Assembly: GCA_007130045.1 (NCBI GenBank)
Contig: SLTG01000143.1
Location: forward strand, 1 to 48,273
Direction: 5' to 3'
Origin: Opitutales bacterium
GTDB taxonomy: Bacteria > Verrucomicrobiota > Verrucomicrobiia > Opitutales > T3Sed10-336
DNA: 48,273 nt
The stretch's first letter is position 1. Each line of letters opens with the position of its first letter. Under the pieces are notes generated by a model that was not told the origin of the DNA, ran no database searches, and was given only the letters and a program-made list of their open reading frames with translations. The position numbers and the translations under genes are program-made. Of this stretch, positions 24,266 to 47,910 are shown in pieces.

Positions 24266-24364
24266 GGCGGCCAACCCGAATCGGACGCGTTCGGGAACAC
24301 CTCCCGGTCATGGGGTCTTAATAAGAAAGGAAATCGTTAATTCAGGATGAGAAAGGACCGGAAA

Positions 24365-26010: not shown

Positions 26011-26018
26011 CCTGAATC

Positions 26019-28010: not shown

Positions 28011-28310
28011 ATGAGTTCCGGGGAGCAATGGGTCAAGGTGCGGGATGAGGTTTGGCGAGTTGGCGGGCGTGTTCCCGGCAACGACGGGGATCTCTATACC
28101 CTTCGGTCGGTGTTGGGAGGTGAAGAACTCCAGGTGCTTGCTTCGCCGGACGAGGTGGAAGTGCTCCCGTCCGGCAGTCCTTCGTTTTTCAGGAACCAGC
28201 GCGCGCCGTGGGGGGTGTGGAAGAACGCCTGTGATCGGTATCGGCCGGGGAGGGATTCGACAGTGAAGCGGAGCAGCATCAGGAAATTGTCAGAGAGGAT
28301 TTTTGGATGA
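28011..28310 (+). CDS. Small protein at the head of the BREX-like operon, SH3-like N-terminus
   Basis: A 99-residue protein I cannot assign. The first 55 residues (W.KVRDEVWRVGGRV...LYTLRSVLGGEELQVLASPDEVEVL) have the rhythm of the SH3-like nucleic-acid-binding domain that often precedes defence helicases. The rest (FFRNQRAPWGVWKNACDRYRPGRDS) is basic and aromatic. Its stop overlaps the ATG of brxF (ATGA), so it is the first gene of a coupled operon. AAAAGGC before the ATG is the only ribosome-binding-site candidate. A DNA-contact or regulatory role is inference. Confidence 0.65.
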   Translation: MSSGEQWVKVRDEVWRVGGRVPGNDGDLYTLRSVLGGEELQVLASPDEVEVLPSGSPSFFRNQRAPWGVWKNACDRYRPGRDSTVKRSSIRKLSERIFG

Positions 28311-28795
28311 CTCACATCGTTCATGAACCGGATTGGGAGTCGATCCTTACCGAGGCGGGGGAAGCTTACTTTAAGCTTGTTTTGATTATCGGTGCCATCG
28401 GATCCGGGAAATCGGCGGCGCTTAAGACGGTTTCGGAATCCTACAGTGTTGGGCATTTGAATTTTGGTGAGGAATTCAGCCGCCGGCTGCTGAGGAAGCC
28501 GGTTCGTTTGCGGGGGGCGGAGGCCGAGGAGGTGGCGGTGGATTTGGTCGGGGAGGTGGCCGGCACACGTCTGGCCATTGATAATACCGAGGTCTTGTTT
28601 GAAGCGCCCGTCCGCCTGAACCCGTTGGCTCTGTTAAAGAAGCTTTCCCGCCACCGGGTCATCATCGCTACCTGGACAGGAAGTCATGATGATTCCAGTC
28701 TGACTTACGGCATTAAGGACCATCCCGCCCACCGGGAACATCGCTTCACCAACGACGATACCTTTATCATCGTCCCTACCCGGAATGTCTCATGA
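28307..28795 (+). CDS. brxF: BREX-3 type P-loop protein BrxF
   Basis: A 162-residue P-loop protein. Seen: Walker A GAIGSGKSAALK near residues 31-42, and LAIDNTEVLF as a Walker-B-like strand, then ALLKKLSRHRVIIATWTG and a C-terminal DTFIIVPT strand. In BREX type 3 loci, BrxF is the small P-loop protein next to the large BrxC-type ATPase; here the order (BrxF, then the 1243-residue ATPase) is the same, with ATGA overlaps on both sides. The exact role of BrxF is not known; it probably works with the large ATPase. Confidence 0.82.
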   Translation: MTHIVHEPDWESILTEAGEAYFKLVLIIGAIGSGKSAALKTVSESYSVGHLNFGEEFSRRLLRKPVRLRGAEAEEVAVDLVGEVAGTRLAIDNTEVLFEAPVRLNPLALLKKLSRHRVIIATWTGSHDDSSLTYGIKDHPAHREHRFTNDDTFIIVPTRNVS

Positions 28796-31700
28796 AATAT
28801 CGCGACCTTATTGAGTTCGAGCCGATCGAGCGGATCATTCAGCTCCGTGACGCCAACAAGGCCGACCGGGCCAAGACCTTTGTGAGCACCTATGTGATCT
28901 CGGACATCATGGCCGAGCGATTGAGGGATCTTGTGCTGCCGCAAATGCGGTTCGACACTCCCGGTGACGCCAAGGGTTTGATGGTGGTCGGCAATTACGG
29001 CACCGGGAAAAGTCACCTGATGTCCGTCCTTTCGGCGGTTGCCGAACATGAGGAGGTGGTGGAGCACCTCACGAACGCCAGTGTTCGGGAAACGGCTGCT
29101 CCTATCGCGGGGGCGTTCAAGGTTATCCGGATGGAAATTGGCGCCGTCGAGATGGGTCTGCGCGAGATCATTATCCGGAACATCGAGAAGCAACTTCGCG
29201 AATGGGACATCGATTTCTCTTTCCCGAGTGCGGACCAGATTACCGAGAACAAGTCGTCCTTCGAAGACCTGATGGCCGAGTTCGAAAAGCGCTTTCCGGG
29301 GAAAGGCCTTCTGATTGTCGTGGATGAGTTGCTCGACCACCTGCGCTCTCGCAACCAGCAGGCGCTGACTCTGGACCTCGGCTTCCTTCGGGAGATCGGT
29401 GAAGTGTGCAAGGACTTGCGGTTCCGGTTCATGGCAGGGGTCCAGGAAGCCATCTTCGACTCGGACCGCTTCGCCTTCGCCTCCGAGAGTCTGGCGCGGG
29501 TCAAGGACCGGTTCGATCAAATCCGGATCCAGAAAACCGACATCACCTACGTGGTGGCCAACCGGCTTCTCAAGAAGACCGAAAACCAGAAGGAAAAAGT
29601 CCGGGAGTACCTCCAGCCATTTGCGAAGTTCTACGACGGCTGGACCGAACGGCTGGCAGAGTTTGTCGATCTGTTCCCGGTTCATCCCAATTACATTCAG
29701 ACCTTCGAGCGCCTGCCGATTGTCGAGCAGCGGGGCGTTCTTCAGGTGCTTTCGTTGAGTTTTAACAAGATCGCCGACCAGGAACTGCCTCAGGACTATC
29801 CCGGCCTGCTGGCCATGGACAGCTTCTGGGCCTTTCTCAAGGACAACCCGCACTTTCGAGCCAACGACGATATCAAATCCACCATTGAGTGCAGCGATAC
29901 GCTGGTTGCCAAGGTGGAGACTGGATTTCCGAAAAATCGCCGGCAGTATCAGCCGATGGCGAAGCGAGTGGTCGAGGGCCTTTCGGTCCATCGGCTCACG
30001 ACATCGAATGTTAATGCCCCCATCGGAATGACTCCCGAGGAAATCCGCGACCAGCTCTGTCTCTATCACCCATTCGTGGCGGAGATGGGCGGAGAACCCT
30101 CGGAAGACTTGCTGACCCTGGTGGACGTAACCCTCAAGGAGATCAATGCCTGCGTCAGCGGGCAGTTTCTCTCGCAGAATAGCGACAACCGGCAGTGGTA
30201 TCTGGACCTCAAGAAGACCGAGGACTTTGACGCGCTCATCGAGAAGCGGGTGGACAGTCTGAACGATGAAGACCTGGACCTCGCCTATTTTCAGGTGTTG
30301 TCCCAGGTGATGGAAGTCACCGAGCCATCCGAGTTCACCGGCTTCCGTATTTGGGAGACCGCGATGCCCTGGAAGGAGCGTAACGTCACCAAGCTAGGCT
30401 GGCTGTTCTTCGGCGTTCCCAGCGAGCGATCCGCCGCCCAGCCGCCCCGGGATTTTTACGTCTATTTCCCGCAGATCGTGCATCCGCCCTCCTTCAGGGA
30501 TGAGAAGAAACCGGACGAAATCTTTTTCCGAGTTGATGCGACCGACGAGAAATTCCGCCATTCCCTGGGGCTCTATGCCGCGGCATTGGCCCTGCGATCC
30601 AGTGCGAGCGGGAGCAAGAAACAGGAATACCATCGCAAGGTTGAAAAACACTTCAGCGACCTCGCGCGCTGGATGAACGAGAACTTCCTGAGCAAGGTTA
30701 CCGTCACTTACCGAGGCAACAAGAAGCCGCTCTCCCAGGCGCTGGCCGGGGAGAACGCATCGGGCAAGACGACCCGCGAACAGGTCTTCCTCGCGGCCTC
30801 GAACCACCTCAACGGTCATTTCGAGGAGATTTGCGGGAACTACCCGAAGTTCACCCGTCAGATCACCTTTGGCAAGGACGGGAACGCCACTCAGGCGGTC
30901 CAGGAGGCATTGAAGGGATTGCACACGACGCCCTCCCAGACCGGAGCGGCTCTCCTCGATGGGCTGGGTCTCTACGAAGGGGAGCGCATCGACCCGCGAC
31001 AAAGCCCCTATGCCGCCTACGTGCTCGAACTCATGGCCCAGAAAGGGCACGGTCAAGTGCTCAACCGAGGCGAGTTGGTTCACAGTATCGATGGGGTGGA
31101 GTACTTCGTGGCGCCGGGCAAGTTTCGCCTGGAGGTCGAGCTGCTGATCGCTGTTCTCGGCGCCCTGGTCCATTCCGGGGAAACCGTCCTTTCGATACCC
31201 GGAAAAGAGTTCAGCGCCACGGATCTCGCGGATCTATCGGCGCGGCCCATCCGCGACCTGATGGATTTCAAGCACCTGAAGAAACCAAAGGACTGGAATG
31301 TTTCGGCGATCAAAGCCCTGTTTGAGCTCCTCGGACTGTCCCCCGGGCTCGCGGTTCAGGTCACGCAGAACGATGCCGGAGCGGTCGTTCAACTGAACAC
31401 GGAACTCAACAAACAGGTGGAGAAACTGGTCTCGCTGCGCCAGGAGTTTTCGGCCGGTATTCCCTTTTGGGGTACACGCCTGATTGGCGACGACGAGGTG
31501 GCGGAGCTTTCCTCCCAGGTCGATGGGGTGAAACAATTCCTGGAGAGCCTCCAGGCCTTCAACACCCCGGCGAAACTGAAGAATTTCAAATACTCCGAGC
31601 AGGAGGTGCTCGCCCACCGACCGACCCTGCAGTGCGTCAAGGAACTGGAAGAACTCAAGGCATTCGCCGACTCGATCGCCGACTTCACCGGCTACCTGAG

Positions 31701-32523
31701 CAACGCCCAGTCTATCCTGCCGCCCGAGCACCCCTGGTGCGGGAAGTGCAAAGAGCTGAGAAAGAAAGTCTCCCAGGAAGCGATGAAGCCGGAGAACCGC
31801 AGTTCACCCGAGTTTCGCCAGCGAGTGACCCGGCAACTCGAAGAGCTCAAACGGGAATACATCGACATTTACCTGAAGCTGTATCGGCACAGCCGGTTGG
31901 ATATCCAGCAGGACCAGCGCAAGAACCGCCTGCTCAACGACACCAGGATGGACCACCTGAAGGCGCTGGCTACCATCCCCACCATGAACGTCTCCCAACT
32001 CAAGGAGATACAGAACGAATTCGGCCGCCTGAAAACCGGCGAGAACCTGACGGCTGCGGACCTGAAGGAAAACCCGGTAGCCGGAGATTTTTATCCGGCC
32101 ATGGAGAGCGCCGGGGACGTTTCGGCGGAGCAGCGGCTCAACAACCTGGAAGAACGCATCCAGGAAACCCACAACTCCTGGACGAAAGCCCTTCTGGGGG
32201 AGTTCGAGGATCCCGTGACCAAGGAACACCTCAAGTTGCTGGAGCCCAAGGGCCGCGAGCTCGTCGAATCATTCCTCGGAGCAAGAGAACTTCCCGACGA
32301 ACTCACGAAAGACTTCATCGCAGCGGTCCGCCAGGCCCTTTCCGGGCTCAGCCGCGTGGTGGTATCCCGCCATGAGCTCGAAGAAGCCCTGTTCCCCGGC
32401 GGCACCGCCACAACTGTCGAGGATTTCAAGGAGCGCTTCGCCGGTTACCTGGACAAGCTCGTCAAGGGGCAGGATCGCGCCAAAGTGAGGCTGGTGCTGG
32501 GGGAGAAGGAAGGCGGGGAATGA
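28792..32523 (+). CDS. Large DUF6079/BrxC-like ATPase of the BREX-like system
   Basis: A 1243-residue P-loop ATPase. Seen: Walker A GNYGTGKS at residues 67-74, a Walker-B-like LLIVVDELLDHL at about 173-184, and QEAIFDSDRFAFAS and DRFDQIRI further on; then a long helical region. The N-terminal block (FEPIERIIQLRDAN, FVSTYVIS) is typical of DUF6079 proteins, which take the BrxC/PglY place in some PglZ-containing loci. In BREX, BrxC is thought to work with PglZ and the methyltransferase in recognising or acting on phage DNA. The frame is fully open over 3.7 kb, so this gene is intact while its partners downstream are damaged. Coupled to its neighbours through ATGA overlaps on both sides. Confidence 0.82.
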   Translation: MKYRDLIEFEPIERIIQLRDANKADRAKTFVSTYVISDIMAERLRDLVLPQMRFDTPGDAKGLMVVGNYGTGKSHLMSVLSAVAEHEEVVEHLTNASVRETAAPIAGAFKVIRMEIGAVEMGLREIIIRNIEKQLREWDIDFSFPSADQITENKSSFEDLMAEFEKRFPGKGLLIVVDELLDHLRSRNQQALTLDLGFLREIGEVCKDLRFRFMAGVQEAIFDSDRFAFASESLARVKDRFDQIRIQKTDITYVVANRLLKKTENQKEKVREYLQPFAKFYDGWTERLAEFVDLFPVHPNYIQTFERLPIVEQRGVLQVLSLSFNKIADQELPQDYPGLLAMDSFWAFLKDNPHFRANDDIKSTIECSDTLVAKVETGFPKNRRQYQPMAKRVVEGLSVHRLTTSNVNAPIGMTPEEIRDQLCLYHPFVAEMGGEPSEDLLTLVDVTLKEINACVSGQFLSQNSDNRQWYLDLKKTEDFDALIEKRVDSLNDEDLDLAYFQVLSQVMEVTEPSEFTGFRIWETAMPWKERNVTKLGWLFFGVPSERSAAQPPRDFYVYFPQIVHPPSFRDEKKPDEIFFRVDATDEKFRHSLGLYAAALALRSSASGSKKQEYHRKVEKHFSDLARWMNENFLSKVTVTYRGNKKPLSQALAGENASGKTTREQVFLAASNHLNGHFEEICGNYPKFTRQITFGKDGNATQAVQEALKGLHTTPSQTGAALLDGLGLYEGERIDPRQSPYAAYVLELMAQKGHGQVLNRGELVHSIDGVEYFVAPGKFRLEVELLIAVLGALVHSGETVLSIPGKEFSATDLADLSARPIRDLMDFKHLKKPKDWNVSAIKALFELLGLSPGLAVQVTQNDAGAVVQLNTELNKQVEKLVSLRQEFSAGIPFWGTRLIGDDEVAELSSQVDGVKQFLESLQAFNTPAKLKNFKYSEQEVLAHRPTLQCVKELEELKAFADSIADFTGYLSNAQSILPPEHPWCGKCKELRKKVSQEAMKPENRSSPEFRQRVTRQLEELKREYIDIYLKLYRHSRLDIQQDQRKNRLLNDTRMDHLKALATIPTMNVSQLKEIQNEFGRLKTGENLTAADLKENPVAGDFYPAMESAGDVSAEQRLNNLEERIQETHNSWTKALLGEFEDPVTKEHLKLLEPKGRELVESFLGARELPDELTKDFIAAVRQALSGLSRVVVSRHELEEALFPGGTATTVEDFKERFAGYLDKLVKGQDRAKVRLVLGEKEGGE

Positions 32524-32729
32524 AGCCGAGAGTCCTCAAAACCGAACAAGACTACGCCGCCGCCTTGGCGAAGGTAGGCGGGCTCATGGACGCGCATCCC
32601 GGCTCGCCGGAGGAGGACGAACTGGAATTGTGGTCGCTACTGGTCGAGCAGTATGAAAAGCAGCACCATCCCATCGACCCCCCGGATCCGATTGAAGCCA
32701 TCAAGTTTCGCATGGAGCAGGAACAATAG
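32520..32729 (+). CDS. Truncated HigA-type antitoxin: N-terminal domain only
   Basis: A 69-residue protein that matches the N-terminal part of HigA-family antitoxins (IKTEQDYAAAL-like start, LMDAHPGSPEEDELELWSLLVEQYE, PIDPPDPIEAIKFRMEQ). In full-length members a helix-turn-helix DNA-binding domain follows directly; here the frame ends at MEQEQ with a stop. The HTH is missing and a hairpin element starts 20 bp after the stop. No HigB toxin is present. The ATG overlaps the stop of the DUF6079 gene (ATGA), so it is translated as part of the operon. It may be a decay product, or a stand-alone dimer/contact domain kept by the system. Confidence 0.75.
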   Translation: MKPRVLKTEQDYAAALAKVGGLMDAHPGSPEEDELELWSLLVEQYEKQHHPIDPPDPIEAIKFRMEQEQ

Positions 32730-32751: not shown

Positions 32752-32840
32752 ACCACGGATTTCACCGATGACACGGATACTTTGCAACCGCGACCGATCA
32801 ACCTCTTTTCCCTATCCGTGTAATCCATGCCATCCGTGGT
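32752..32840. repeat. ccacggat hairpin element 1 (upstream of sbcD)
   Basis: An inverted repeat with 28-base arms (32752-32779 and 32813-32840) built from the units CCACGGAT, ACCGATGA and CACGGAT; the right arm is an imperfect complement. The loop is about 33 bases. A similar element lies at 38463 and a third at 40018. It fills the gap between the HigA fragment and the SbcD gene. Confidence 0.85.
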
Positions 32841-32856
32841 AAAAAAACCCGTGCCC

Positions 32857-33981
32857 ATGACCGTCCGTTTCATCCATACCGCCGACTGGCAGATCGGCAT
32901 GAAAGCTTCCGGAATTGGACCGGTGGGGCAACAGGTGCGCGAGGCGCGACTCGATACGATCAACCGGGTTTTGGGTGTCGCCAAAGAAAGAGGGATCAAT
33001 CTGCTCCTGATCACCGGGGACGTATTCGAGGATAATGCAGTGGACCGCTTTCTGGTTCGGAAGGTGGGGGACAAGCTTTCACGGTTCCCGGGCCGGGTTT
33101 ACATTATCCCCGGCAATCACGATCCGCTCGTTCCCGGTAGCGTGTGGGAGCATGCGGTCTGGGAGGAGGCTTCGAATGTTTCGGTCATTCGCGAACCTGA
33201 GCCTATCGAGCTGGATGATTGTATCCTCTATCCCTGCCCTCTGGAGGAGAAATATTCCACCCGGAATCCCACATCGTGGATTGATGCGGGTGAATCCGAA
33301 AAGATCGCCATAGGGCTTGCCCACGGGAACGTCGAGGGACTTCCCGACGCGGATCCCGATTTTCCGATTCCGAGAGACGCCGCCGGGCGGGCCGGACTCG
33401 ACTTTCTGGCCGTCGGGCACTGGCATTCTTTCGCGACCTATCCGGGAGCGGACGGCGCTGTTCGACTGGCCTACTCCGGAACCCACGAAACGACCAAATT
33501 TGGTGAGCGAGACAGCGGAAACGTTCTTGTCGTCGAAATCGATGAGCGCGGAGCCGCTCCGAAGTTGGAATCGGTCCCCGTCGGGCGGCTTCAATGGCAA
33601 ACAGAGGAGACAAGCCTGGAGAGGGAAGGCGCGCTCGATTCGGTCTTGAGTGGCCTGAACGAGATCCCGGCACCGGAATCCACCTTATTACGTCTGCGGT
33701 TGAACGGCCTGCTCTATGCCTCGGATCGTGCGAAATTGGCATCCGTTGAGGAGATTGTCTCCACCCGATTCCTCTACGGAATAGTTGATGGGCAATCGCT
33801 CGTCCCGGCGCCGGAGGACGATTCCTGGATCGAGTCACTGCCCGTAGGACCGGTCCGCGAAGCGGCTGAAAAAATACGCGAGCAAGCCCTTCATGCCTCG
33901 GACGAGGAGAAGAAGGCAGTCGCCACGCGAGCGCTCATTCAGCTTTTTGAGATGAACGAAAAAAATCATGAAGGGGAGTGA
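32857..33981 (+). CDS. SbcD/Mre11-like metallophosphatase nuclease
   Basis: A 374-residue calcineurin-fold phosphoesterase, starting at the ATG at 32857 (MTVRFIHTADWQIG); the upstream frame is repeat sequence. Seen: motif I HTADWQIG, II ITGDVFED, III PGNHDP, IV GLAHGN, V VGHWHS. In Mre11/SbcD motif I is normally D-x-H; here the His is Gln, so one metal ligand is changed, which is also seen in other bacterial members and may not abolish activity. The capping domain continues to the end. SbcD works as a Mn-dependent exo/endonuclease with an SMC-like ATPase (SbcC); a candidate for that partner is the 35751 gene. Its 3' end overlaps the AlbA_2 gene by 14 bp. Confidence 0.85.
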   Translation: MTVRFIHTADWQIGMKASGIGPVGQQVREARLDTINRVLGVAKERGINLLLITGDVFEDNAVDRFLVRKVGDKLSRFPGRVYIIPGNHDPLVPGSVWEHAVWEEASNVSVIREPEPIELDDCILYPCPLEEKYSTRNPTSWIDAGESEKIAIGLAHGNVEGLPDADPDFPIPRDAAGRAGLDFLAVGHWHSFATYPGADGAVRLAYSGTHETTKFGERDSGNVLVVEIDERGAAPKLESVPVGRLQWQTEETSLEREGALDSVLSGLNEIPAPESTLLRLRLNGLLYASDRAKLASVEEIVSTRFLYGIVDGQSLVPAPEDDSWIESLPVGPVREAAEKIREQALHASDEEKKAVATRALIQLFEMNEKNHEGE

Positions 33982-35371
33982 GATTGAGGTCATTGCCCGG
34001 GAGGGTGAATCGGAAGTTGTGGAACTGAAGAAATCCACGGCCCAATTGCGGCGGGCTTGCGAAACACTGTGCGGGATGCTCAATGGTAGTGGCGGCAAGG
34101 TTCTGATTGGTGTTACTCCGTTGGGGCGTGTCGTGGGGCAGGAGATTTCCGACAGAACGCTTCGTGATGTGGCGGACATGCTTCGACGATTCGAGCCCCC
34201 GGCGCCAATTGAACAGACTCTCGTCAAAATTGAAAACGATCGAAGGATTCTGGTGCTTTCGGTACCGGCCAGTCCGGAGTCGCGCCCCTACGTGTTTGAC
34301 GGTCGCCCGTATCAGCGACTCGGAACAACCACCTCGTCGATGCCTCAGGAAGTGTATCAACGGCTGCTGAGTGAAAGAGCGCACAGTCGGGTGAGGTGGG
34401 AGAATCACCCTGCCGAAAGCCACTCTGTATCCCAATTCGATGAAGAAGAGATTCTAAAAACCGTTCGCATCGGAATTGCGGCGGGCAGACTGCCGGAATC
34501 CACGGGGACTTCCGTTCCTGATATTCTGGAACGACTTGGCCTGTGGCATGACGGGAACCCAAACAACGCGGCAATCGTACTTTTCGGCACACAATTTGTC
34601 CCTGACTACCCGCAATGCCAATTGCGAATGGCGCGATTCCGCGGAGTCGGCAAGTCTGAATTTATAGACCAACGCCAACTGGAAGGGCATGCCTTTGACC
34701 TTCTCGACGAAGCCATGTTCTTCCTGCGCCGCCACCTGCCCGTCGCCGGTCGTGTCATCCCCGGCCTTTTCGAACGCGAAGACGAACCCCTGTTTCCTTT
34801 GGAAGCATTGCGGGAGGCATTGGTCAACGCTCTCTGCCATCGCGACTACTCCATTGCAGGCGGTGCGGTGAGCTTGGCGATCTTCGATGATCGACTCGAA
34901 ATCTGGAGCGACGGAACCCTCCCATTCGGCCTGAAGCCGCAAGACCTGAAACGAGAGCATCCCTCGCGCCCCAGAAATCCACTGATCGCAAAAACCTTCT
35001 ACCTGCGCGGCGTCATCGAGCAATGGGGTAGGGGCACGCAAAAGATCGTCGAACTCTGCGTGAAGGCCGGTCACCCCGAGCCCGAATTCGGCGAACAAGC
35101 CGGCGCCGTCTGGGTCCGCTTCCTGCCCAGCGGCTACATCGCTTCCCACCGGGTTGCGCACGATCTGACAGAGAGGCAACGGGAGCTTCTGCAAATCCTC
35201 GCCGATGAAGGGCCTATGCCACTTCGAACGATTCGTGACCGCTTGTCGGCTCCACCGTCAAACCGAATGATACAAGGGGATTTGGCGCACCTCCGGAGAC
35301 TTGATCTCGTCCAGTCAAATGGCCGTGGACGTGGCGCGGTTTACGGATTGCGAAGGAATAGTGAAGAATAA
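33968..35371 (+). CDS. AlbA_2/Schlafen-type ATP-binding protein with GHKL-like and winged-helix domains
   Basis: A 467-residue protein. Seen: an N-terminal AlbA_2 domain (EVVELKKST...TLCGMLNGSGGKVLIGVTPLGRVVG...RPYQRLGTTT); a middle ATP-binding region with FPLEALREALVNALCHRDYSIAGGAVSLAIFDDRLEIWSDGTLPFGL (HATPase_c_4 type, with N, D and G boxes) and GRGTQKIVELCVKAG; and a C-terminal winged-helix region (LTERQRELLQILADEGPMPLRTIRDRL). The family is common in defence islands, sometimes as a transcription regulator and sometimes as an RNA/DNA-targeting effector. It overlaps sbcD by 14 bp and the next gene by 1 base (TAATG). A regulatory role is possible. Confidence 0.85.
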   Translation: MKGSEIEVIAREGESEVVELKKSTAQLRRACETLCGMLNGSGGKVLIGVTPLGRVVGQEISDRTLRDVADMLRRFEPPAPIEQTLVKIENDRRILVLSVPASPESRPYVFDGRPYQRLGTTTSSMPQEVYQRLLSERAHSRVRWENHPAESHSVSQFDEEEILKTVRIGIAAGRLPESTGTSVPDILERLGLWHDGNPNNAAIVLFGTQFVPDYPQCQLRMARFRGVGKSEFIDQRQLEGHAFDLLDEAMFFLRRHLPVAGRVIPGLFEREDEPLFPLEALREALVNALCHRDYSIAGGAVSLAIFDDRLEIWSDGTLPFGLKPQDLKREHPSRPRNPLIAKTFYLRGVIEQWGRGTQKIVELCVKAGHPEPEFGEQAGAVWVRFLPSGYIASHRVAHDLTERQRELLQILADEGPMPLRTIRDRLSAPPSNRMIQGDLAHLRRLDLVQSNGRGRGAVYGLRRNSEE

Positions 35372-35721
35372 TGAAACGAATAGTGAAACACCATTGCACT
35401 ATTGCGCTGCGAATTATTCGGATGGACGCCGCCCTTCCGAAAAGCACCGAAGCGCAGGTTCTTGGGACACAGGCGTTACGCTCCGGAATGTCAGTCGGTG
35501 CAATTTTCCGGGAGGCATGGCACGCTCGTTCGAAGGCCGAGTTCATCTCCAAGCCCGGTGACTGCCTCAAAGAGATCGACGAGTCCGCCTATTGGCTCGA
35601 ACTCCTAGCTGAAGCAGAAATTGTCCCCGCCCAGCGGCTCGCGTCCCTTCACGACGAAGCCAATCAGCTCACGGCAATATTCACGACCATTTCCAAAAGC
35701 ACCAAGTCCAACCCCTCATAA
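35371..35721 (+). CDS. Four-helix-bundle protein of the 23S rRNA intervening-sequence family
   Basis: A 116-residue protein close to the usual length. Seen: FALRIIRMDAALPKS-like start (here CTIALRIIRMDAALPKST), then the block SGMSVGAIFREAWHARSKAEFISKPGDCLKEIDESAYWLELL, a clear match to the S23/IVP four-helix-bundle family (TIGR02436). Genes of this family recur, scattered, next to short repeats in many PVC genomes. Here it is followed by TTCATAATTCATAATTG-type repeats (separate entry) and preceded by GAATAGTGAA repeats. It sits between the AlbA_2 gene and the SMC gene. It may be a passenger element and not part of the defence system. The function is unknown. Confidence 0.8.
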   Translation: MKRIVKHHCTIALRIIRMDAALPKSTEAQVLGTQALRSGMSVGAIFREAWHARSKAEFISKPGDCLKEIDESAYWLELLAEAEIVPAQRLASLHDEANQLTAIFTTISKSTKSNPS

Positions 35722-35750: not shown

Positions 35751-38441
35751 ATGCTTCTCCACAAAATAACCGTTTCCCATTGGCGCAGCCTTCTGAACGA
35801 GGTGGCGATGGGACCGTTTTCGGAGCGGGTCAATGTCGTGCATGCTCCCAACGGAACGGGAAAGTCCGCCATGTTCGAGGCGATGCGCCGGGGGCTCTTC
35901 GATGCCCACCACGTGACCGGAGGAGAGATCGAAGCGGTGCGTCCGTGGGGACGTGATCTGTCTCCATCGGTCACCGTGGAATTCTCGGAGGACGACCAGA
36001 CCTACCGGGTCGAGAAGATCTTTCTGTCCGGTTCGTCGGCGAAGCTGTCCAGACTGGAGTCAGGGAGTTTTCAACCCCTTGCCACGGGACGCGATGCCGA
36101 TGCCAGGATCCGGGAGATTCTCGCGGCCGATGCACCCGGACGCGGCCTCTCCCGGCACGAACACTGGGGACTGGCGCAAATCCTGTGGGCGCCGCAGGGC
36201 GCGCTGCACCTCGAAGCCATCAGTGAAAACGTGGCGAAGAACGTTCGGGCGGCACTGGGCGTGCAGATTTCCGGGGAGACCGGCGGTCAGTTGGAGGAAC
36301 GGATTGCCCGGCGTTACCTGGATTACTTTACGAAAACGGGAAAGCCCAAGACCGGGAAGAATGCGGCGCCGGTTACCGGATTGACCGAGCGGCGCGAGAG
36401 ATTGAAGGCGCAGTTGGTGGAGCTCCGGCAGAAACAGCAGGGGTTCGAGGAAGCTTCGCGCACCGTTGAAGACGCCCGAAACCGACGCGACCAGGCACGC
36501 CGAGAGGCCGACTCCCTCCGCCAGACCCTTGGCGGCTTGCGAAAGCAGGCGGAAGAATACACGAGGCTCAAATCAGACCTGAAGAACAAGCAGGAATCCG
36601 AATCTCTGGCCAAAGAGCGTTACGAGAACCTGAACGCCGCCAAGGAACGCATCGAAGCCACCCGGAAGGAGATTACCGAGCTGGAAGAAAAGGTCAAACA
36701 GGCGGCGAAGCGTGAAGGGGAATTCAAAACAGAATGGGAGACCGCCAAGGAGTTGCTGGAAAAGCGTCGCTCCGAACGCGAGACCGCCCGCGCCCGCAGC
36801 AGTCAAACGAGCGATCATCTGAAAAAAATCGAAACCGCCCGGCAATTCCTTTCGGATCAATCCGATTCAGAATCCCTTCGTACCCGCCTGGACAAGATCA
36901 CCAACCTGGAAGCCGAATTGCAGAAGGAGCGAAAAAAGCGGACGGAAACCGTGGCGCCGGATGCCAAGACGGTTCGTGAGGCTCGGAAGCTCATCGGTGA
37001 GCGCGATACGGCCGTGGCTTCGCTCGCGGCTTCCCAGGTTCATCTGACCCTGACTCCGGAAACGACGGTTTCCGTCCACAACCTAACGGAGGACAGCTCC
37101 CACCAAGCGTCTCCTTCCCATCCGCTCAAGCTCTCCGGGGATGCCATGGTTGAGGTGAAAGTGGAGGGCTTCGGAGGGATCCGAGCCGCCGGACCCGAAG
37201 GCGGAGCGGAAAAGCACCGGGATGCCATCAGGGAGGCGAAAGACAAACTTGAAAAGCTCTGTGAGCCCTATGGGAGCACCGACCCGGACCGGCTCGACGC
37301 GCTTCGTGAAAAAGCCCAGGAGCTCGATCAGTCGATCAAAGCGATCCAGCAGAAGACCGAGACTCTCCTCGACGGCACGACGACCGACGCGCTGTCCTCA
37401 CGTCTCGCGGAGATCAAAGCGCGGCGGAAAGCCACCCTGGAAACCTATCCCGACTGGGAGCAGAATCCTCCCGTCCTGAGTGAGCTCCAATCGGCCTTCG
37501 ATCAGTTCAATAACGAAATCCGCGATACGGTTCAGAAAGCCGAAGACGCCTTCGACAAGCAGCAGGGAGTCTGCACCACCGCCGAAAACCAGCTCAACAC
37601 CCACATGGCGCAGCTCAAGGCGGATCGGAAAAACCTGGAAAGCGCACGGAAACGTCTTGAAGAACTGACCCAGGATGGCCTTTCGGACGAACATCGGACC
37701 AAGGCGATCTCGGAGGCTTTGATGAACTGGAAAGCGTCGAAGGAGACCGCGGGTCAATTGGAGGAACAGTTAAAGGCAATCCCCGGTGACCCGGCGAAGG
37801 ACCTGGAGAAGTTGGAACGTCAACTCGGCGCCCACGAAGATACGGAGAACAAAGCCCGGGACGACGAAAAGACCGCGGAGGGCCGCCTCCAGGGGCTGGC
37901 CGCGGAAGGCGCCTACTCGAAGCTGATTGCCTGTGAGGAAGAATTGGAGAACGTTGACGAGCAAATTGGCCACGAGACTACCAAAATGGAGGCGATTCGT
38001 CTTTTGCACGACACCGTGACCGAATGCAAGCAGGCGGTGGTCGCCAGTGTTGCGGCGCCCCTGGAACGCAGCGCCACGCAAATGCTCTCCCGGGTCGTCG
38101 GACCCCGCCTCGGCCGGCTCCGGCTCGACCAGAACTTCGTCCCCGAAGCCATCCACCCGGACCTCGCCAGCGAGCCGGTTAAACTCGACAACCTCTCCGG
38201 AGGAGAGCAAGAACAGCTCTTCCTGATCACCCGCCTCGCCCTGGCCGAAGTCCTGGCGAAAAGCGGACGCCAGCTCATTGTCCTCGACGACGTCCTCAAC
38301 GCCACCGACAGCGGCCGCTTGGCCCGCCTCCTCACGCTCCTGGAGGAAGTTTCCGACCGCCTCCAAATCATCATCCTCACCTGCCACCCCGAACGCTACC
38401 GTGGCTTGGGCGGGGCGGAGTTTTTTGAACTCAATCATTAG
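35751..38441 (+). CDS. SMC/SbcC-like AAA ATPase of the BREX-like locus
   Basis: An 896-residue ATPase. Seen: the Walker A APNGTGKS at residues 32-39, the ABC signature LSGGEQEQLFLITRLALAEVL at about 813-833, the Walker B QLIVLDDVLNATDSGRL at about 840-856, and between them (about 200-750) a long coiled coil of E/K/R-rich heptads. The middle of the coil has no CxxC zinc hook as in SbcC/Rad50; the few cysteines are isolated, so dimerisation would differ. It is the natural partner of the SbcD-like nuclease two genes upstream (with an AlbA_2 gene and an IVP-type gene in between). This is the classical nuclease/ATPase pair; in this locus it would deliver the DNA cleavage step. Role is inference. 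Confidence 0.85.
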   Translation: MLLHKITVSHWRSLLNEVAMGPFSERVNVVHAPNGTGKSAMFEAMRRGLFDAHHVTGGEIEAVRPWGRDLSPSVTVEFSEDDQTYRVEKIFLSGSSAKLSRLESGSFQPLATGRDADARIREILAADAPGRGLSRHEHWGLAQILWAPQGALHLEAISENVAKNVRAALGVQISGETGGQLEERIARRYLDYFTKTGKPKTGKNAAPVTGLTERRERLKAQLVELRQKQQGFEEASRTVEDARNRRDQARREADSLRQTLGGLRKQAEEYTRLKSDLKNKQESESLAKERYENLNAAKERIEATRKEITELEEKVKQAAKREGEFKTEWETAKELLEKRRSERETARARSSQTSDHLKKIETARQFLSDQSDSESLRTRLDKITNLEAELQKERKKRTETVAPDAKTVREARKLIGERDTAVASLAASQVHLTLTPETTVSVHNLTEDSSHQASPSHPLKLSGDAMVEVKVEGFGGIRAAGPEGGAEKHRDAIREAKDKLEKLCEPYGSTDPDRLDALREKAQELDQSIKAIQQKTETLLDGTTTDALSSRLAEIKARRKATLETYPDWEQNPPVLSELQSAFDQFNNEIRDTVQKAEDAFDKQQGVCTTAENQLNTHMAQLKADRKNLESARKRLEELTQDGLSDEHRTKAISEALMNWKASKETAGQLEEQLKAIPGDPAKDLEKLERQLGAHEDTENKARDDEKTAEGRLQGLAAEGAYSKLIACEEELENVDEQIGHETTKMEAIRLLHDTVTECKQAVVASVAAPLERSATQMLSRVVGPRLGRLRLDQNFVPEAIHPDLASEPVKLDNLSGGEQEQLFLITRLALAEVLAKSGRQLIVLDDVLNATDSGRLARLLTLLEEVSDRLQIIILTCHPERYRGLGGAEFFELNH

Positions 38442-38462: not shown

Positions 38463-38550
38463 ACCACGGATTACACCGATTACACGGATACTCCTCCACC
38501 AGAACCACCACCCATCATCCTCTATCCATGAAATCCATGACATCCGTGGT
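38463..38550. repeat. ccacggat hairpin element 2 (upstream of the methyltransferase stub)
   Basis: Inverted repeat with 28-base arms (38463-38490 and 38523-38550), same units as element 1: ACCACGGATTACACC... on the left, ...CATCCGTGGT on the right. It fills the gap between the SMC gene and the methyltransferase stub. Confidence 0.85.
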
Positions 38551-38566
38551 CAAAAAATCTACACCC

Positions 38567-38863
38567 ATGAGCAATCAATCCAATTTAGAATTTACAACCG
38601 ACAAGAAATCCGGTCCCGTCGAATGCCTCGGCCAGACCTTTCCGTCCGAGGAAGCTCGGCGGGCACATTATACGGAACTCTTGCGTGAGAAGCTGAAAGA
38701 TCCGGAGTTTCGGAAAATCGAGGGGTTTCCGATTGGGGAAGATGAGGACATCTTGGCTCTATCGGATCCCCCGTATTACACCGCCTGTCCGAATCCGTGG
38801 ATTGGGGAATTTATCAAACAAATGATCTACGATATGGCGGAGATGAGGGGCGGGGAAGGGTGA
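38567..38863 (+). pseudogene. N-terminal stub of a large adenine-specific DNA methyltransferase
   Basis: A 98-residue fragment. The sequence LREKLKDPEFRKIEGFPIGEDEDILALSDPPYYTACPNPWI matches the very N-terminal region of the long DNA methyltransferases of PglX-like loci (the pattern G-F-P-x-G-x-x-x-D-I-x-x-L-S-D-P-P-Y-Y-T-A-C-P-N-P). Full-length members continue for several hundred residues; here the frame ends at 38863 after FIKQMIYDMAEMRGGEG and only repeats follow. The SAM-binding domain is not seen anywhere downstream. The ATG at 38567 follows element 2. Without the rest this protein cannot methylate DNA. It shows that the ancestral operon carried a methyltransferase at this place. Confidence 0.7.
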
Positions 38864-38870
38864 CGGTTGA

Positions 38871-38910
38871 AGGATGAGGGATGAATTATGATTTATGAGG
38901 GATGAGGGGG
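38871..38910. repeat. ATGAGGGATGAATTATG-type repeat
   Basis: Units of GGATGAGG and GATGAATTATGATTTATG in a 40-base tract after the methyltransferase stub, similar to the reverse complement of 35714-35745. Confidence 0.6.
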
Positions 38911-38919
38911 GAAAGGAGA

Positions 38920-38947
38920 ACCACGGATGACACGGATTGCACGGATG
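38920..38947. repeat. Single arm of a ccacggat element at the stub/helicase junction
   Basis: A lone arm (ACCACGGATGACACGGATTG and the following CACGGAT unit) without its inverted partner. It lies exactly between the methyltransferase N-terminus and the helicase C-terminus, where the missing sequence would have been. Confidence 0.75.
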
Positions 38948-39015
38948 AGGGATATTAATGAATGCGGAGTCGGTGGGGCCAGTCCCTGGTGTGAAGCTCT
39001 GATGGGCGATGATCA

Positions 39016-39999
39016 GTGGTTTGGCGACGGGGCTATGATAGGAGGTTTATATTTATGGGCTCGGAGGCGGGTGCCCATATTTTCGACAAGCTCTTTATCG
39101 ATGCCCTGCTCGATCCTGAAAAGATCCCGGGAGAGGTGGAGGAGGTGGCGCAGGTCGTCAAACAGGAGGCCGAGTGGAACCGGCGGGAGCTGAGCATCCT
39201 GGGCGGTGACCAATCCGAGGACGTTCAATCTTTCGAGCAAGATATTTCCACCCAGCCCCTGCCCGACTACTTGGAGATTCTGGTGCGCTCCCACCTGGAA
39301 TCCTGAGGAGGCGAGTGCCGGAAGACGGCCTCCGGGATCGCGGTTCGGTGGCCGGATGAGGAAACAGCCAGAGAATATGGGTTTGCCGGGGCCGGGGAAG
39401 AGCGGGTCGGCGAACTGCTCACCCTCGATCATCCCAAGATCCGGCAATTACTCGACCATGTCCCGCGCTACATAAAGGGAGACCCGGTTCCAAAGGTCGG
39501 AATTGACGAACTACCGGGGGAGAACGGCGGTTTCTGGTCGTTGTGGCACCTGGGGTGGGTGACTTCGGAATCGACATTTCAGGAGTTTTTTCCGGTGTTT
39601 ACCGATTCCGACGGGAGGTCGTTCGACCGCACCGCCCATTTCCTATGGGATCGATTATTGAGCGGTGCTTTGGAGATTGATACCGTGTGGAGGCGGGATG
39701 ACCGGGAAAATCTCTACGAGCTTCACGAGGCCACGGCTCAGAAGGCGGGGCTCCCGGTGTTTGAGAGACTGAAGGCCAAACACGAGCAGTTTCTCGCCGA
39801 GCGGGAGAAAAACGGGCGGCATCATTTCGAAGTGCGCTTGCAGCAACTCAACCAGATCGGGTTGCCTGAAGTCAGGCGATTCCGTCAAAGGCAGCTGGAA
39901 TTGGAGCGGGCGACCTGGCAACAGGAGATAAAAGCCCTTCACACCGTACGTCCGAGCCTGAATCCGGTCATTCTGATTAGGATCGAATCTTCGCGATGA
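39016..39999 (+). pseudogene. C-terminal remnant of a DEAD/SNF2-type helicase with in-frame TGA
   Basis: Two stretches in the same frame: up to 39306 (MGSEAGAHIFDKLFIDALLDPEKIPGEV...HLES) and after the TGA at 39304-39306, from GGECRKTASGIAVRWPDEETAREYGF to LNPVILIRIESSR. The second part has FWSLWHLGWVTSESTFQEFFPVF.DSDGRSFDRTAHFLWDRL and a Glu/Arg-rich coiled tail, as in the C-terminus of BrxHII-type helicases. The helicase motor (DEAD box, motifs I-VI) is absent. The first part has a strong AGGAGG (39040-39045) 9 bases before the ATG at 39055. Either the gene is dead, or the 83-residue head is still made. It would correspond to the helicase of the BREX-3 order. The family call rests on weak sequence memory. 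Confidence 0.55.
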
Positions 40000-40017: not shown

Positions 40018-40085
40018 ACCACAGATGACACAGATTTCACAGATATTTTCTTTAATCAATCGGTGTAATCCGAGCCATCCGTGGT
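40018..40085. repeat. ccacggat hairpin element 3 (upstream of pglZ)
   Basis: Arms at 40018-40045 (ACCACAGATGACACAGAT..., with A for G changes) and 40059-40085 (...GAGCCATCCGTGGT); the loop is only about 13 bases. It fills the gap between the helicase remnant and pglZ. Confidence 0.8.
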
Positions 40086-40110
40086 TAAAAAAGAGCCTCT
40101 TAAAACGCTG

Positions 40111-42092
40111 ATGGATTGGAAACAGGAATTGGTCGATAAATTCATTCCGGAGCTGGAATCCAAGGTCTGGGCGGTCTTCGATCCGGATGCGATTGTGCGG
40201 AATGAGCAGATCCTCGGCCCGCTTCAGGCCAAGGGCTTCGACGTGGTCTTTTTTGACGATCCTCTCGCGTTTCGCTATGAATATGAGAGCCGGATAAGGC
40301 GGGAGTGGGAGCGCGGGGAAAAGACTCCGTTGGTTTTGATTTTCGACGATAGGGCGGGCGGATTCAATGGACTGCCCTCGGATGTTCTCGCTTCTGCTCA
40401 TCTGCTTGAGTTTGGGCTGGAGGACCTGTTTTCAAACCTCGATCCCGACGTGCTTCGGGAGCTCGGCCCCGATACGTGGACGACCTTGAGCCACCAGGCT
40501 GCCAAACACCCCGGTAAGAAATTCCGGGCGAGCGAGACCGAGGAGCTCTCGATGAAGGTAGGTTATCGGCTGGTGCCGGAGTTGATCGATTCACCGGTCG
40601 AATTGATCCGGCGGCTGATCGATCTGCACCGTGGCGGTCTCGAACTGCCTGAACGGCTCTGTTTGCGCCTGGAGCGTGAGTTGTGTGGGCAGGCACCGTT
40701 CGCGCATTGGCCGGTTCGGGATCTCGCCGGTAATCCTGGGCTCTTCTGGCAGTTTCTCCAGGAGCGATGGACCCGATTCATCCGTAGCAAAGTCGATGAT
40801 GGCGATCCTGCAGAAGTAAAGGAGATGTCGATTCAGAGCGTCCCGGACCTTCCGTTCGATGATCCCGCCCTGAAGATTTACATCGATACCCTGTTTACCG
40901 ACGGATTGCTGGATCGGGTTGATGTCGGAGGGATCCAACCGGGCTCGGGGCAGTGGTGGATGGTGGGCGTTTCCGTCCCGGACACACCACCGGCGCCCGA
41001 TCCTGAGCGTGTGACTAAGCTCTTGGACGAAATACCCAGCGAGGATGGAAACCATAGGGATTGGATTCGGTTTGGAATAAACTACAGCCGACTGGCGGGC
41101 GAAGTATTCCGGTCGGGCGAGACCGAGTTGATCGATGCTTTCTGGAGCAACCTTTGGCCCGAAGTGGACCGCAGGTTTTCACGATGGTTGGAAACCGGGT
41201 ACACGAGTTTGCACAGCCTGCCGGCGTCGCCCCCGGCAATGGTTCGCCATGTGCCGAAACAGATGGGCAGGTGGCTCAAAGACGGTGGGAAGGTTGCGCT
41301 GATTGTCCTGGATGGATTGTCGCTGGCGGGATGGTTTACCGTCCGGCAGCACCTGTTAGCGGAATTGTCGGAAAAGGTCAGGGTTGAGGATTCGGCAGCG
41401 TTCGCCTGGTTGCCGACGTTAACCCCCGTATGTCGTCAGGCTCTGTATTCCGGGTTGCGCCCCGGTTGTTCCCGGAATCCATTAAGCGGACCGATCTCGA
41501 CGCTTCGCGATGGAAGGAATTTTGGGTATCGCAGGCTTCTCTCCTGCCTCGACGGATTCACCACCAGCTCGTAAAGGGGGCGACCGCGGAGTTGAATGAA
41601 CTCCCAGACCTCCAGGCTGGCGGAATCAACGCTTTCGGCCTTACCGTGAGCCAACCCGATGAGATTATGCACGGGGCGACCCTCGGGTGGCCCGGATGGC
41701 ATCAGCAGTTGGAACTGTGGATGCGGACCGGGTTTTTAAGCCAATTGGTTGACCGATTATTGGCGGGCGGGTTTACCGTCTGCCTTTCCGCCGACCATGG
41801 AAACCTGGAATCGATCGGTATAGCGGCGATTCAGGATGGAGTTCTGGCGGAAAGGAAGGGCCAGCGTGTACGCGTGTATCCGAATACCACACTCCGCAAC
41901 CGTGCCCATGAAAGTACGGGCGAGGCGGGCAAGGTGTGGGACTCGGCCTTGCTGCCCGAGGGATTCTTTCCCTTGTTTGCGGCCGGTCGTGGCGCCTTCG
42001 TCACGAAAGGGGATAAAGTGGTCGCTCACGGAGGGGCCAGCCTGGATGAATTGCTCGTCCCGTGGGTCACTATTCGAAAAGGCGATCTATAA
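40111..42092 (+). pseudogene. pglZ: PglZ phosphatase-like protein, split by a one-base frameshift
   Basis: About 660 residues in two frames: 40111 to about 41463, then to 42092. The shift lies in the C-run of CGCCCCGG (41458-41465): frame one goes off at the end of ALYSGLRPG, while the frame with RLFPESIKRTDL..WKEFW continues one base off. One extra C would restore one frame. Catalytic blocks of the alkaline-phosphatase fold are present on both sides: VALIVLDGLSLAGW (metal Asp), PTLTPVCRQAL (Thr nucleophile), LSADHGNLE (metal His) and VAHGGASLDELLVPWV. So the ancestor was a complete PglZ. The ATG at 40111 (MDWKQELVDKF) starts where similarity starts; a GTG at 40081 lies inside the repeat arm. 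It overlaps the next gene by 1 base (TAATG). Confidence 0.85.
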
Positions 42093-42814
42093 TGCACCGG
42101 ACCAAGATCACGTTTAATCGGACGATCCGTGCTTCCTGGCTTTGTGAGGCTTTGCGCCTCAAGGCCGACGGCCTCGAGGATGCTGAAGCCACAAGCAGAT
42201 TGAAAGAATTGATGGCCGCCGATGTGTCCGGCGAGGAATCGCTTCGCAAGTCACTCCGTTATCTCCGTCGTATTTGGATGAATCCGCATGAGGACCTGAT
42301 TCCACTGAAGGACGAAGGCCTTGGTCTGTACCGGAAAAATCCATCCCCTGACACAGCAACGACTCTGTCCTTCTTCATGCTCATAGCGACTTACCCATTC
42401 GTTCGGGAAGTTGGGGAGGTTTGTGGACGGCTCTATCGCCTTCAGGGCTCGGTCAAATCCGAGCAGATCAAGCGCAAGATAGCCGCTATGTATGGGGAGC
42501 GTGAACCTGTCTTCCGCTCAGCCCGATACGCCATCTCACTCCTGGCAGATTTTGGATTACTCAAAACAACATCGCGGAAGGGCACTTACGATGCCGGAAA
42601 AACCGAGATCAAGAATCCCGGGGTCGCCGCATTCGCCATTGAGGCCTTTATGCGATCATTATCCAAAGAGGCTGGAATCCGCCGATCCGAGCTGGAAAAC
42701 CACCCCGGCTTTTTCGCCTTCAATCCCCACACCCTAACCGAATTGGCCTTGCTCGATCAACGTTTCTCAGTCTCAAGGGAGTCAATCAGCACGGAGGTCA
42801 TTTCGCTTGTATGA
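42092..42814 (+). CDS. Small protein in the BrxA position, family uncertain
   Basis: A 240-residue, mainly helical, soluble protein following PglZ with a one-base overlap (TAATG), so it was translated together with it. In BREX type 3 order the gene after pglZ is brxA; length and helical nature fit roughly, but I do not recognise the DUF1819 pattern with certainty. Seen: KITFNRTIRASWLCEALRLKADG near the start, RKSLRYLRRIWMNPHEDLIPL, FFMLIATYPFVREVGEVCGRLY in the middle, an Arg/Lys-rich winged-helix-like part (AARYAISLLADFGLLKTT, approx.), and a C-terminal SVSRESISTEVISLV. The frame is open and complete. Possible DNA-binding role; not firm. Confidence 0.6.
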   Translation: MHRTKITFNRTIRASWLCEALRLKADGLEDAEATSRLKELMAADVSGEESLRKSLRYLRRIWMNPHEDLIPLKDEGLGLYRKNPSPDTATTLSFFMLIATYPFVREVGEVCGRLYRLQGSVKSEQIKRKIAAMYGEREPVFRSARYAISLLADFGLLKTTSRKGTYDAGKTEIKNPGVAAFAIEAFMRSLSKEAGIRRSELENHPGFFAFNPHTLTELALLDQRFSVSRESISTEVISLV

Positions 42815-45468: not shown

Positions 45469-47910
45469 CTACCGGAGATACTCCGATCCGATTGGGTCAT
45501 GAAGGATCCGGTATCCAAGTTGCCGGTAGCCTGCGGATCGCTTCCGGTACATGCTGGCTGTGAGGGCGAGTTGCTTGTCGAGGTAATCGTAAATCGTAAC
45601 CGTCTCCTTCCCTTCATGTTTTCGGTGCAAACGACCGACATATTGAATGAGACGTCCCTTGAAGGAGACCGGCATGGCCAGAAAGAGGGTGTCCAGCATG
45701 GGGAGATCGAATCCCTCGCCGAGGAGGGACGCCGTGGCGAAGAGGCAGGCGGGTTTTCGCGATTTAATTGCAGAAGTAAAGCGATCGAACTCGGCCGCAC
45801 GTTGTTTCGGAATCAGCGAGCCCTCAACTGAGACCAGACAAAATCTTTCCTGTGTATCCAGGTTTTCCACTTCTTTTTTTAGCGTTGCCAGGTGCTCCTT
45901 CCGGTCAGAGAGGACAATCGGTTTTCTCCCTTCGTTCAGAGCTTTTTCGATGTCTCCTGCGATCAATCCGTTCCGCTCGGGCGAGCGAATCAATGCCTGC
46001 CAGATCAGATGCAAGGGCAACACCTGTTGGTTTGGCGCGGTCGGTGGTCTAAATGGCGTGTTGCGAATGATGACCTGTTTCGTCAGAGATGTTTCCGAAT
46101 CCTCCGCGATTGCATGGCGAATCGGACCGCATTGTTGGTACAGGAGGCGTTCCAGTCCGTCTTTTCTTTTTGGTGTGGCGGTGAGTCCGGTTATGTGACG
46201 GCTTTCGCACTCCTTCATCAGGGCTTCCAGCGTGACCGCCGGAATATGATGGCATTCGTCCACAATCACCGAACCGTAATTGCGAAAGAACGCCTTCGGG
46301 TTTTCCGTTTTGGCAAGACTCTGGAGCATGACGACATCGATCTTTCCGGTGAGTTTCTTCCTGGTTCCGCGCCATTGACCGATCTGATTGTCCTTCGCAG
46401 AGAGAAACTCGTTCAGTCGTTTCAACCATTGTTCCAGGAGTGTTTGGCGGCTGACAAGGATTAGAGAAGTGGTTTTTCTCGACCCAATTAGGGCGCATGC
46501 TATCACGGTTTTTCCGGCTCCGGGGGGAGCCACGAGCACTCCCCAGTCGTGATCCCGCAATGCCTTTAACGCCTGTGTTTGGGGATGGGTTAGACGCCCG
46601 GTGAATTTTAGCTGAATCCGATTGGCCCGCAGGCGTCGGTCCTCAGTTTCGATGCGGGAACCGCATTGGGCGAACAATTCCGTGACGTCCTCCAGGCAGC
46701 CTCGGGGCAACACGATCCGGTCCTCATTAATTGCACCGGAGAAGATGCAGCGTGGAATGTTGTAGGTCGGGAATCGCTGTCGTTGCTTCTCGAAGAATAT
46801 CGGATTGGGGATCGTAGCCAGACCTTTCAATCTGGCGAGGAAACCATCGGGCAAGTTCGTCGTGGGGATGATCACGGCATCGCTCAGATAAACTTTCCAA
46901 TCGGGCAGCACCGGAAGGCTCAGGGGGTCGTCCCGGCTTGATTCCAGGATCAGCTCTTCCCTTTCAATCGTCGGTGTTTCGTCGGTAATTGCTTCACCAA
47001 CGTGTTGTTCCAGCAGGTTCCGTACATCTTCGCCGGAGAAACGGGGGATCTCGGAGAGAATCTTCCATTGGTCGGGAAAGGGGGCGAGGGACTCGTCCAC
47101 GTATTCGGTGAATCCCTGAGTCCGGCGATCCTTTTGAAGCGGCAACGCGATCAGGTTTCCGAATCCGCTTTTGGGGAGAGTGTCCTGGTTCGGGAAAAAG
47201 CGGTCGTAAGTGTCGAGACGAATGTGCGGATTGTCGCGTGCAGCCCTGGCCAGAATAAGACTGCCCAGGGCTCGCGCATGAGAACCCTTTACCGGTTCGG
47301 AGAAGAAGACCCAGGCATGGGCGCCGTTGCCCGACCGGGAGATTTCCGCGAGACAGGAAACACCCAGGGAAGCAGCGGCGTCTCGATAGGCGACGACGTC
47401 GCTTTGCCAACCGTCGCCGTCGAAGTCCGCCGCTAAGAAGACGCAGCGGTCGTCCTGACGGAGCGCGTAGGTCCCGATCACCTGTTGTCCGCGCAAATGC
47501 GATTCGATGACATCGGCGGAAAGGGGGACGAAGTTTTTTGGCCCGTATTTGGCGTAGTTCTCCGTCGGCTTCAATCGGCGGCCGTTTCCCCAAACCGCTC
47601 GGCAGACGGGCGAGTAGCCTTTGCGGCCCGTTTGCTCATTCACCCAGAGGCGAGGGTAAACATCCCTTCGCGCCACGAACATCCTCTGGAACAGGGCGAC
47701 CTTTTCTCCGGGCGTTTCCGGATACTTTCGATCATCCAGCGACGGAAGCGTTCCTTCCCGGAGCGCGGCGTGTTTGATCTTCCGCAGATCGTCCAAGAGT
47801 GCTCGGCGTTCGGCCTCCAAATCAGCCAGCCGCTCCTGAATGGATTCGAGACGGGAAGCGGCCGTATTGGACTGGACCTCCTTTGGCTCCATATCCGGAT
47901 CATTTTCCAC
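45469..47910 (-). CDS. TOTE-type primase (AEP)-superfamily 2 helicase fusion
   Basis: An 813-residue fusion, GTG start at 47910 with AAGG 7 bases upstream; an ATG at 47892 is an alternative. Seen: an N-terminal coiled coil (18-50); an archaeo-eukaryotic-primase domain with FLAADFDGDGW (D162 and D164 metal ligands) and SGNGAHAWVFF (S193-H198), then HIRLDTYDRFFPNQDTLPKSGFGNLIALPLQ; and a superfamily 2 helicase from about 440 with Walker A APPGAGKT (about 460), VDECHH (about 549), TGLTATPKRKDG, LLGEGFDLPMLD and QYVGRLHRKHEG. The AEP-TOTE domain marks the TOTE conflict-system class; other partners of that class are not seen in the window. Reads toward the BREX-like block; intact. Confidence 0.9.
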   Translation of the reverse strand: MENDPDMEPKEVQSNTAASRLESIQERLADLEAERRALLDDLRKIKHAALREGTLPSLDDRKYPETPGEKVALFQRMFVARRDVYPRLWVNEQTGRKGYSPVCRAVWGNGRRLKPTENYAKYGPKNFVPLSADVIESHLRGQQVIGTYALRQDDRCVFLAADFDGDGWQSDVVAYRDAAASLGVSCLAEISRSGNGAHAWVFFSEPVKGSHARALGSLILARAARDNPHIRLDTYDRFFPNQDTLPKSGFGNLIALPLQKDRRTQGFTEYVDESLAPFPDQWKILSEIPRFSGEDVRNLLEQHVGEAITDETPTIEREELILESSRDDPLSLPVLPDWKVYLSDAVIIPTTNLPDGFLARLKGLATIPNPIFFEKQRQRFPTYNIPRCIFSGAINEDRIVLPRGCLEDVTELFAQCGSRIETEDRRLRANRIQLKFTGRLTHPQTQALKALRDHDWGVLVAPPGAGKTVIACALIGSRKTTSLILVSRQTLLEQWLKRLNEFLSAKDNQIGQWRGTRKKLTGKIDVVMLQSLAKTENPKAFFRNYGSVIVDECHHIPAVTLEALMKECESRHITGLTATPKRKDGLERLLYQQCGPIRHAIAEDSETSLTKQVIIRNTPFRPPTAPNQQVLPLHLIWQALIRSPERNGLIAGDIEKALNEGRKPIVLSDRKEHLATLKKEVENLDTQERFCLVSVEGSLIPKQRAAEFDRFTSAIKSRKPACLFATASLLGEGFDLPMLDTLFLAMPVSFKGRLIQYVGRLHRKHEGKETVTIYDYLDKQLALTASMYRKRSAGYRQLGYRILHDPIGSEYLR

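Follow-up and report, generated by a model that had tools for sequence, protein, structure and literature searches.

The Type-3 BREX locus in the window, by which we mean the whole 48,273-bp stretch of Opitutales DNA analysed here (SLTG01000143.1, contig C114 of a 3.4-Mb, 146-contig metagenome bin that is 96.7% complete and 0.7% contaminated), has very probably decayed, most likely as a redundant defence island that lost genes to illegitimate deletions and to point lesions. Profile searches place the locus at 28.3–42.8 kb, where brxF, brxC, a set of cargo genes, pglXI, brxHII, pglZ and brxA follow one another. All six genes of the Type-3 set, as given in PMC12839542, are present, some of them in remnant form, and they follow the usual order with the cargo in between; their family matches are those of intact loci from Verrucomicrobiota and from other phyla. 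However, three of the six core genes are broken: pglXI is internally deleted, brxHII is down to its 3′ third, and pglZ is frameshifted. The island was probably acquired. Its left flank (23077–26855) is also found, at 74% identity, in a genome of the same genus (G002), where BREX is absent after it, and brxC was not found in either of the two other genus members. Adjoining the island on the minus strand is a gene for a primase-polymerase and SF2 helicase protein (45469–47910), probably another defence gene.

The remaining core genes and the cargo are open, all of them on the plus strand. brxF (28307–28795) is an intact ORF of 162 aa (PADLOC BrxF, E = 2.5e-36), brxC (28792–32523) encodes an intact DUF6079 ATPase of 1243 aa (PF19557, 1426.8 bits; PADLOC BrxC, 1531.8 bits), and brxA (42062–42814) is likewise an intact ORF (PADLOC BrxA, 6.1e-41); the locus has the DUF6079-type BrxC ATPase, the BrxF and the BrxA of a Type-3 system. 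The cargo comprises a metallophosphoesterase (32827–33981; PF00149, 4.6e-10), a Schlafen/AlbA_2 protein with a RecG C-terminal ATPase-like domain (33968–35371; PF04326, PF13749), a 23S rRNA intervening-sequence (four-helix bundle) protein (35371–35721; PF05635) and, by its profile matches, an SbcC/LmuB-like SMC-type ATPase (35751–38441). Its pairing with the SbcC-like gene suggests that the metallophosphoesterase is SbcD-like. A 69-aa ORF following brxC (32520–32729, plus strand) matches only the first 71 positions of the 402-position PD-Lambda-2_B family; it stops just 5′ of the repeat element E1, described below, and represents another gene end in the operon that has been cut short.

Four further contigs of this assembly (C66, C11, C43 and C84) carry parts of another, diverged Type-3 BREX locus, namely brxF, brxC, the 5′ and 3′ ends of pglXI, the 5′ end of brxHII, the 3′ half of pglZ and brxA, and we infer that the four contigs represent one locus. 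The brxC copies of the window and of C66 are 80% identical. C84 is 109.6 kb long and carries ordinary chromosomal genes, so that it is not a stray short contig. Because synonymous sites are near saturation, the two loci are either old paralogues or separate acquisitions. The initial annotation had named an intact methyltransferase with the same motif, supplied from elsewhere, as evidence that would speak against its reading; both ends of another pglXI do lie on contigs of this assembly, but its middle is absent from the assembly. On C66 (L013, 735–972), the C-terminal end alone of the SbcC-like ATPase is kept as a fragment (81.6% nucleotide identity) beside the four-helix-bundle gene and the start of pglXI.

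What remains of pglXI in the window? The 98-aa ORF at 38567–38863 is recognised as the PglXI N-terminus (PADLOC PDLC02541, profile positions 11–87 of 919, E = 3.5e-37) and is followed at 39052–39990 by a match to BrxHII. This agrees with the initial annotation, which had described a methyltransferase N-terminus and a helicase C-terminus side by side, with the methyltransferase body and the helicase motor missing; both gene bodies are indeed absent. The same annotation took the entire 98-residue ORF to be a methyltransferase head. That description fits the first 84 codons (38567–38818, plus strand, to ...PNPWIGEFIK), which match PDLC02541 and share 80.7% nucleotide identity with the pglXI 5′ end on C66, but the last 14 codons and the stop (38819–38863, plus strand) are the 3′ end of pglXI. 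Their translation, QMIYDMAEMRGGEG, matches QMIYDMAEMRAGE, the end of the pglXI fragment on C11, and also the C-termini of relatives, such as LQMIYDTAV in the PglXI of genome G405. Furthermore, the similarity continues beyond the stop codon (window 38819–38885 versus C11 603–677, ~75% nucleotide identity over 75 bp). Since it matches the C11 end, also past the stop, the tail of the stub is a real PglXI C-terminus and not random read-through.

In the relatives, PNPWIGEFIK is followed by ~830 more codons and then by the same C-terminus; the stub is therefore a PglXI that lacks its middle, the two ends being fused in frame at 38818/38819. By this comparison, it is an internal in-frame deletion, with ~2.5 kb, or ~830 codons, missing. 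The sequences share a few bases at most at the join, and a join made by accident has a one-in-three chance of being in frame. The family identity of the remnant is clear, and it is far from a full-length PglXI-type methyltransferase: the SAM-binding motif, the catalytic core, the second DPP motif, the Zn-finger target-recognition insert and the C-terminal HTH (DNA-binding) domains are all lost (domains after PMC12839542). Between the two loci, dN is 0.23 versus a dS of 1.4 in the head and 0.13 versus 1.7 in brxC; as dS is near saturation, the constraint seen in the head predates the deletion.

The brxHII remnant (39052–39999, plus strand) covers profile positions 617–930 of 933 (PDLC02500) and carries an in-frame TGA at 39304–39306, so this gene, too, falls short of a full-length helicase; BrxHII has been reported in 77% of Type-3 loci (PMC12839542). 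Its first two thirds, ~616 codons at the 5′ end, are missing, and homology starts at ~39055, an end point that is precise to ~15 bp, with a best BrxC identity outside this assembly of 51–52%. The interval from the pglX stop to the first brxHII homology had been described as a 150-bp gap holding repeats only. It measures ~190 bp and consists of one repeat arm (E3) and ~108 bp of other sequence (38947–39054), for which no other match was found in the assembly; the brxHII deletion begins, on its left side, in or near this segment. Downstream, pglZ (40081–42092, plus strand) is split by a 1-bp frameshift near 41454–41466, at about profile position 460, with profile positions 2–460 in one frame and 457–663 in the next. 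Comparison with the copy on C84 suggests that one base was lost in a short G run. The pglX and brxHII lesions are distinguishable and represent two separate events, and the pglZ frameshift is a third lesion.

Could recombination between two ccacggat elements have removed the middle of the locus, as was proposed initially? These elements are intergenic palindromes of two arms, and pattern scans place them at 32753–32839 (E1), 38464–38549 (E2) and, in a ccacggat-like form, 40019–40084 (E4). E3 (38921–38946, plus strand) is a lone arm with 0 mismatches to the pattern, and a facing arm was not found nearby. The window contains 7 matches to the arms with up to 3 mismatches, versus 0.00 expected; with up to 2 mismatches allowed, the whole assembly has seven copies, six of them in the BREX locus and one at G000:C115:26984–27009, and none were found in the BREX loci of relatives. 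That material was deleted is borne out. The density of four elements or arms within 7.3 kb of the operon, one of them the lone arm beside the brxHII remnant, would also suit the proposal, and the brxHII deletion may have its left border at or just past that arm. On the other hand, the arm, real as it is, does not sit at the junction: it lies 57 bp 3′ of the pglX stop and 102 bp 3′ of 38818/38819, and the pglX break falls inside the reading frame with no ccacggat element on either side. Nor is there an element near the right end of the brxHII deletion (~39055). Two recombining palindromes should leave a whole one, but E3 is a single arm, and the same repeat is not found at both ends of the deletion with one whole copy remaining. 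The pglX end points thus fall outside the elements to which they had been assigned, and we regard the recombination proposal as very unlikely. E3 could be where the brxHII loss begins on the left, but it does not mark the pglX deletion. The octamer ATCCGTGG at 38793–38800, 18 bp 5′ of the pglX break, falls within the codons for the conserved PNPWIG motif and recurs in the diverged pglXI of C66, and it is therefore coding sequence rather than an element.

The pglX junction and the pglZ frameshift are known from one metagenome assembly, and the deletion might accordingly be a misjoin, or might occur in some cells only while others keep an intact locus. The bin is in 146 contigs, some of which break inside pglXI and brxHII, and the overlapping ends of C11 and C43 differ in a way that hints at mixed strains. 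However, the window sequence contains no N letters, and the sequences joined at the pglX junction appear to have too little in common to have been misjoined on shared k-mers. Moreover, the tail and its C11 counterpart are different alleles, which means that the second locus was not the source of the tail. Consequently, we consider an artefact or a mixed population improbable. That C84 starts at PglZ position 458, near the frameshift of the window, might have pointed to a misjoin, but we set this reading aside, as the two copies are only ~66% identical in DNA.

Relatives' loci came from 384 genomes in the class, 388 in the phylum and the best 80 in GTDB, and the same pglX stub was found in none of those searched; the initial annotation had named a relative sharing it as evidence that would speak against a deletion scar. 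In the 32 loci that hold brxC, pglX and pglZ together, pglX has its full span in every case (cut down in 0 of 32), one of these genes being frameshifted near codon 128 (G405, L040). By comparison, brxHII is full or near full in 17 of the loci, a fragment in 3 and not found in 12. In this family, brxHII loss is common and pglX loss is not. The three fragments stand beside intact pglX and pglZ: L126 (18452–19069) retains a brxHII motif and the tail, L148 (19550–19726) the head only, and L142 (20826–21174) a short head fused in frame with the final 66 residues, which makes it a direct parallel, in brxHII, to the remnant in the window. Contigs that reach pglX end in it in 13 of 19 cases, a count confounded by the size of the contigs. 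The pglXI frameshifts of two relatives nearly coincide (L040 near 10795 and L151 near 15910, at about codons 127–139).

Extra pglX 3′ ends of 29–59 codons lie just 5′ of further cargo genes in six relatives (L093 11596–11881, L098 21485–21607, L115 14435–14683, L123 21175–21351, L137 20093–20179 and L145 20066–20158). In L093 and L115, the extra end is directly preceded by a brxHII 5′ fragment, and in L115, a single 86-aa ORF consists of a BrxHII head and a PglX tail. These duplicated ends point to an exchange of cargo modules bordered by the ends of core genes. The tail of the window stub might likewise be a duplicated gene end that arrived with a cargo module and to which the head was then joined, and the L115 and L142 fusions lend this some plausibility. 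In the window, however, neither a cargo gene nor a second pglX follows the tail, and a simple internal deletion gives the same sequence in one event and with fewer steps; we think such an exchange unlikely here. A broader version, in which head-plus-tail remnants recur in Type-3 BREX islands as a by-product of cargo turnover, with modules bordered by pglX 3′ and brxHII 5′ copies being joined and excised between core genes, is a tentative idea that we rate as doubtful.

We therefore return to decay by illegitimate deletion and point lesions. In this account, a deletion of ~2.5 kb within pglXI, apparently closed by illegitimate end joining inside the coding sequence, left the 98-codon head-plus-tail remnant in frame; a separate deletion removed the first two thirds of brxHII, whose remaining tail acquired a stop codon; and pglZ gained its 1-bp frameshift. 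The second locus may have relaxed the need for this one. As for the order of the lesions, in the Pgl system of Streptomyces a PglX that lacks its PglZ partner is toxic (PMC4365076), and if this holds for Type 3, loss of PglZ could plausibly have made an intact PglX harmful and favoured the loss of pglX. In Type-1 BREX, methylation requires PglX, PglZ, BrxB, BrxC and BrxA (PMC9122589); the need for PglX and PglZ was established by measurements on systems of Types 1 and 2, whereas the window locus is Type 3.

Might the remaining genes still work? The initial annotation held that the rest of the locus must be inert or must function without methylation. The first is very probably correct. The second is weakened by the damage to PglZ and BrxHII, since a BREX system in which three of the six core genes are broken is unlikely to work without methylation. 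A reduced system, in which the 98-aa protein acts with brxF, brxC and brxA, perhaps through the Schlafen and SbcCD-like cargo, could draw on the fact that these genes are open and the remnant is in frame, and a Type-1 system has been reported to retain some resistance independently of PglZ (PMC12839542). Yet no relative searched shares such an arrangement, and with PglZ and BrxHII broken as well, we find it extremely improbable. A residual role is possible for the open brxF, brxC, brxA and 98-codon remnant, but as a BREX system, the locus is most likely inert.

Natural disruptions of pglX are known from phase variation in Streptomyces (PMC4365076) and from a truncation in an Antarctic cyanobacterium (PMC9716671), and pglX disruption in BREX has been noted as frequent (PMC9122589). 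As in the window, an intact pglX is lost from an otherwise recognisable BREX locus; those cases, however, are homopolymer slips or truncations, some of them reversible, whereas the window pglXI cannot switch back because ~830 codons are gone. The Klebsiella plasmid pSTW0522-44-3 (AP022422.1) similarly carries brxC followed by a pglXI 5′ stub (~150 aa), but its gene is cut off at an arsenic-resistance operon and the pglX 3′ end is absent. The scar in the window is a new, irreversible example of an already known kind of pglX loss. It illustrates how BREX islands decay, with core genes failing singly while the cargo and some core genes remain open, and it indicates that loci scored as BREX by gene content can lack a functional methyltransferase, helicase and PglZ. 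The gene ends duplicated in relatives, in turn, offer a lead on the route by which cargo enters BREX islands.
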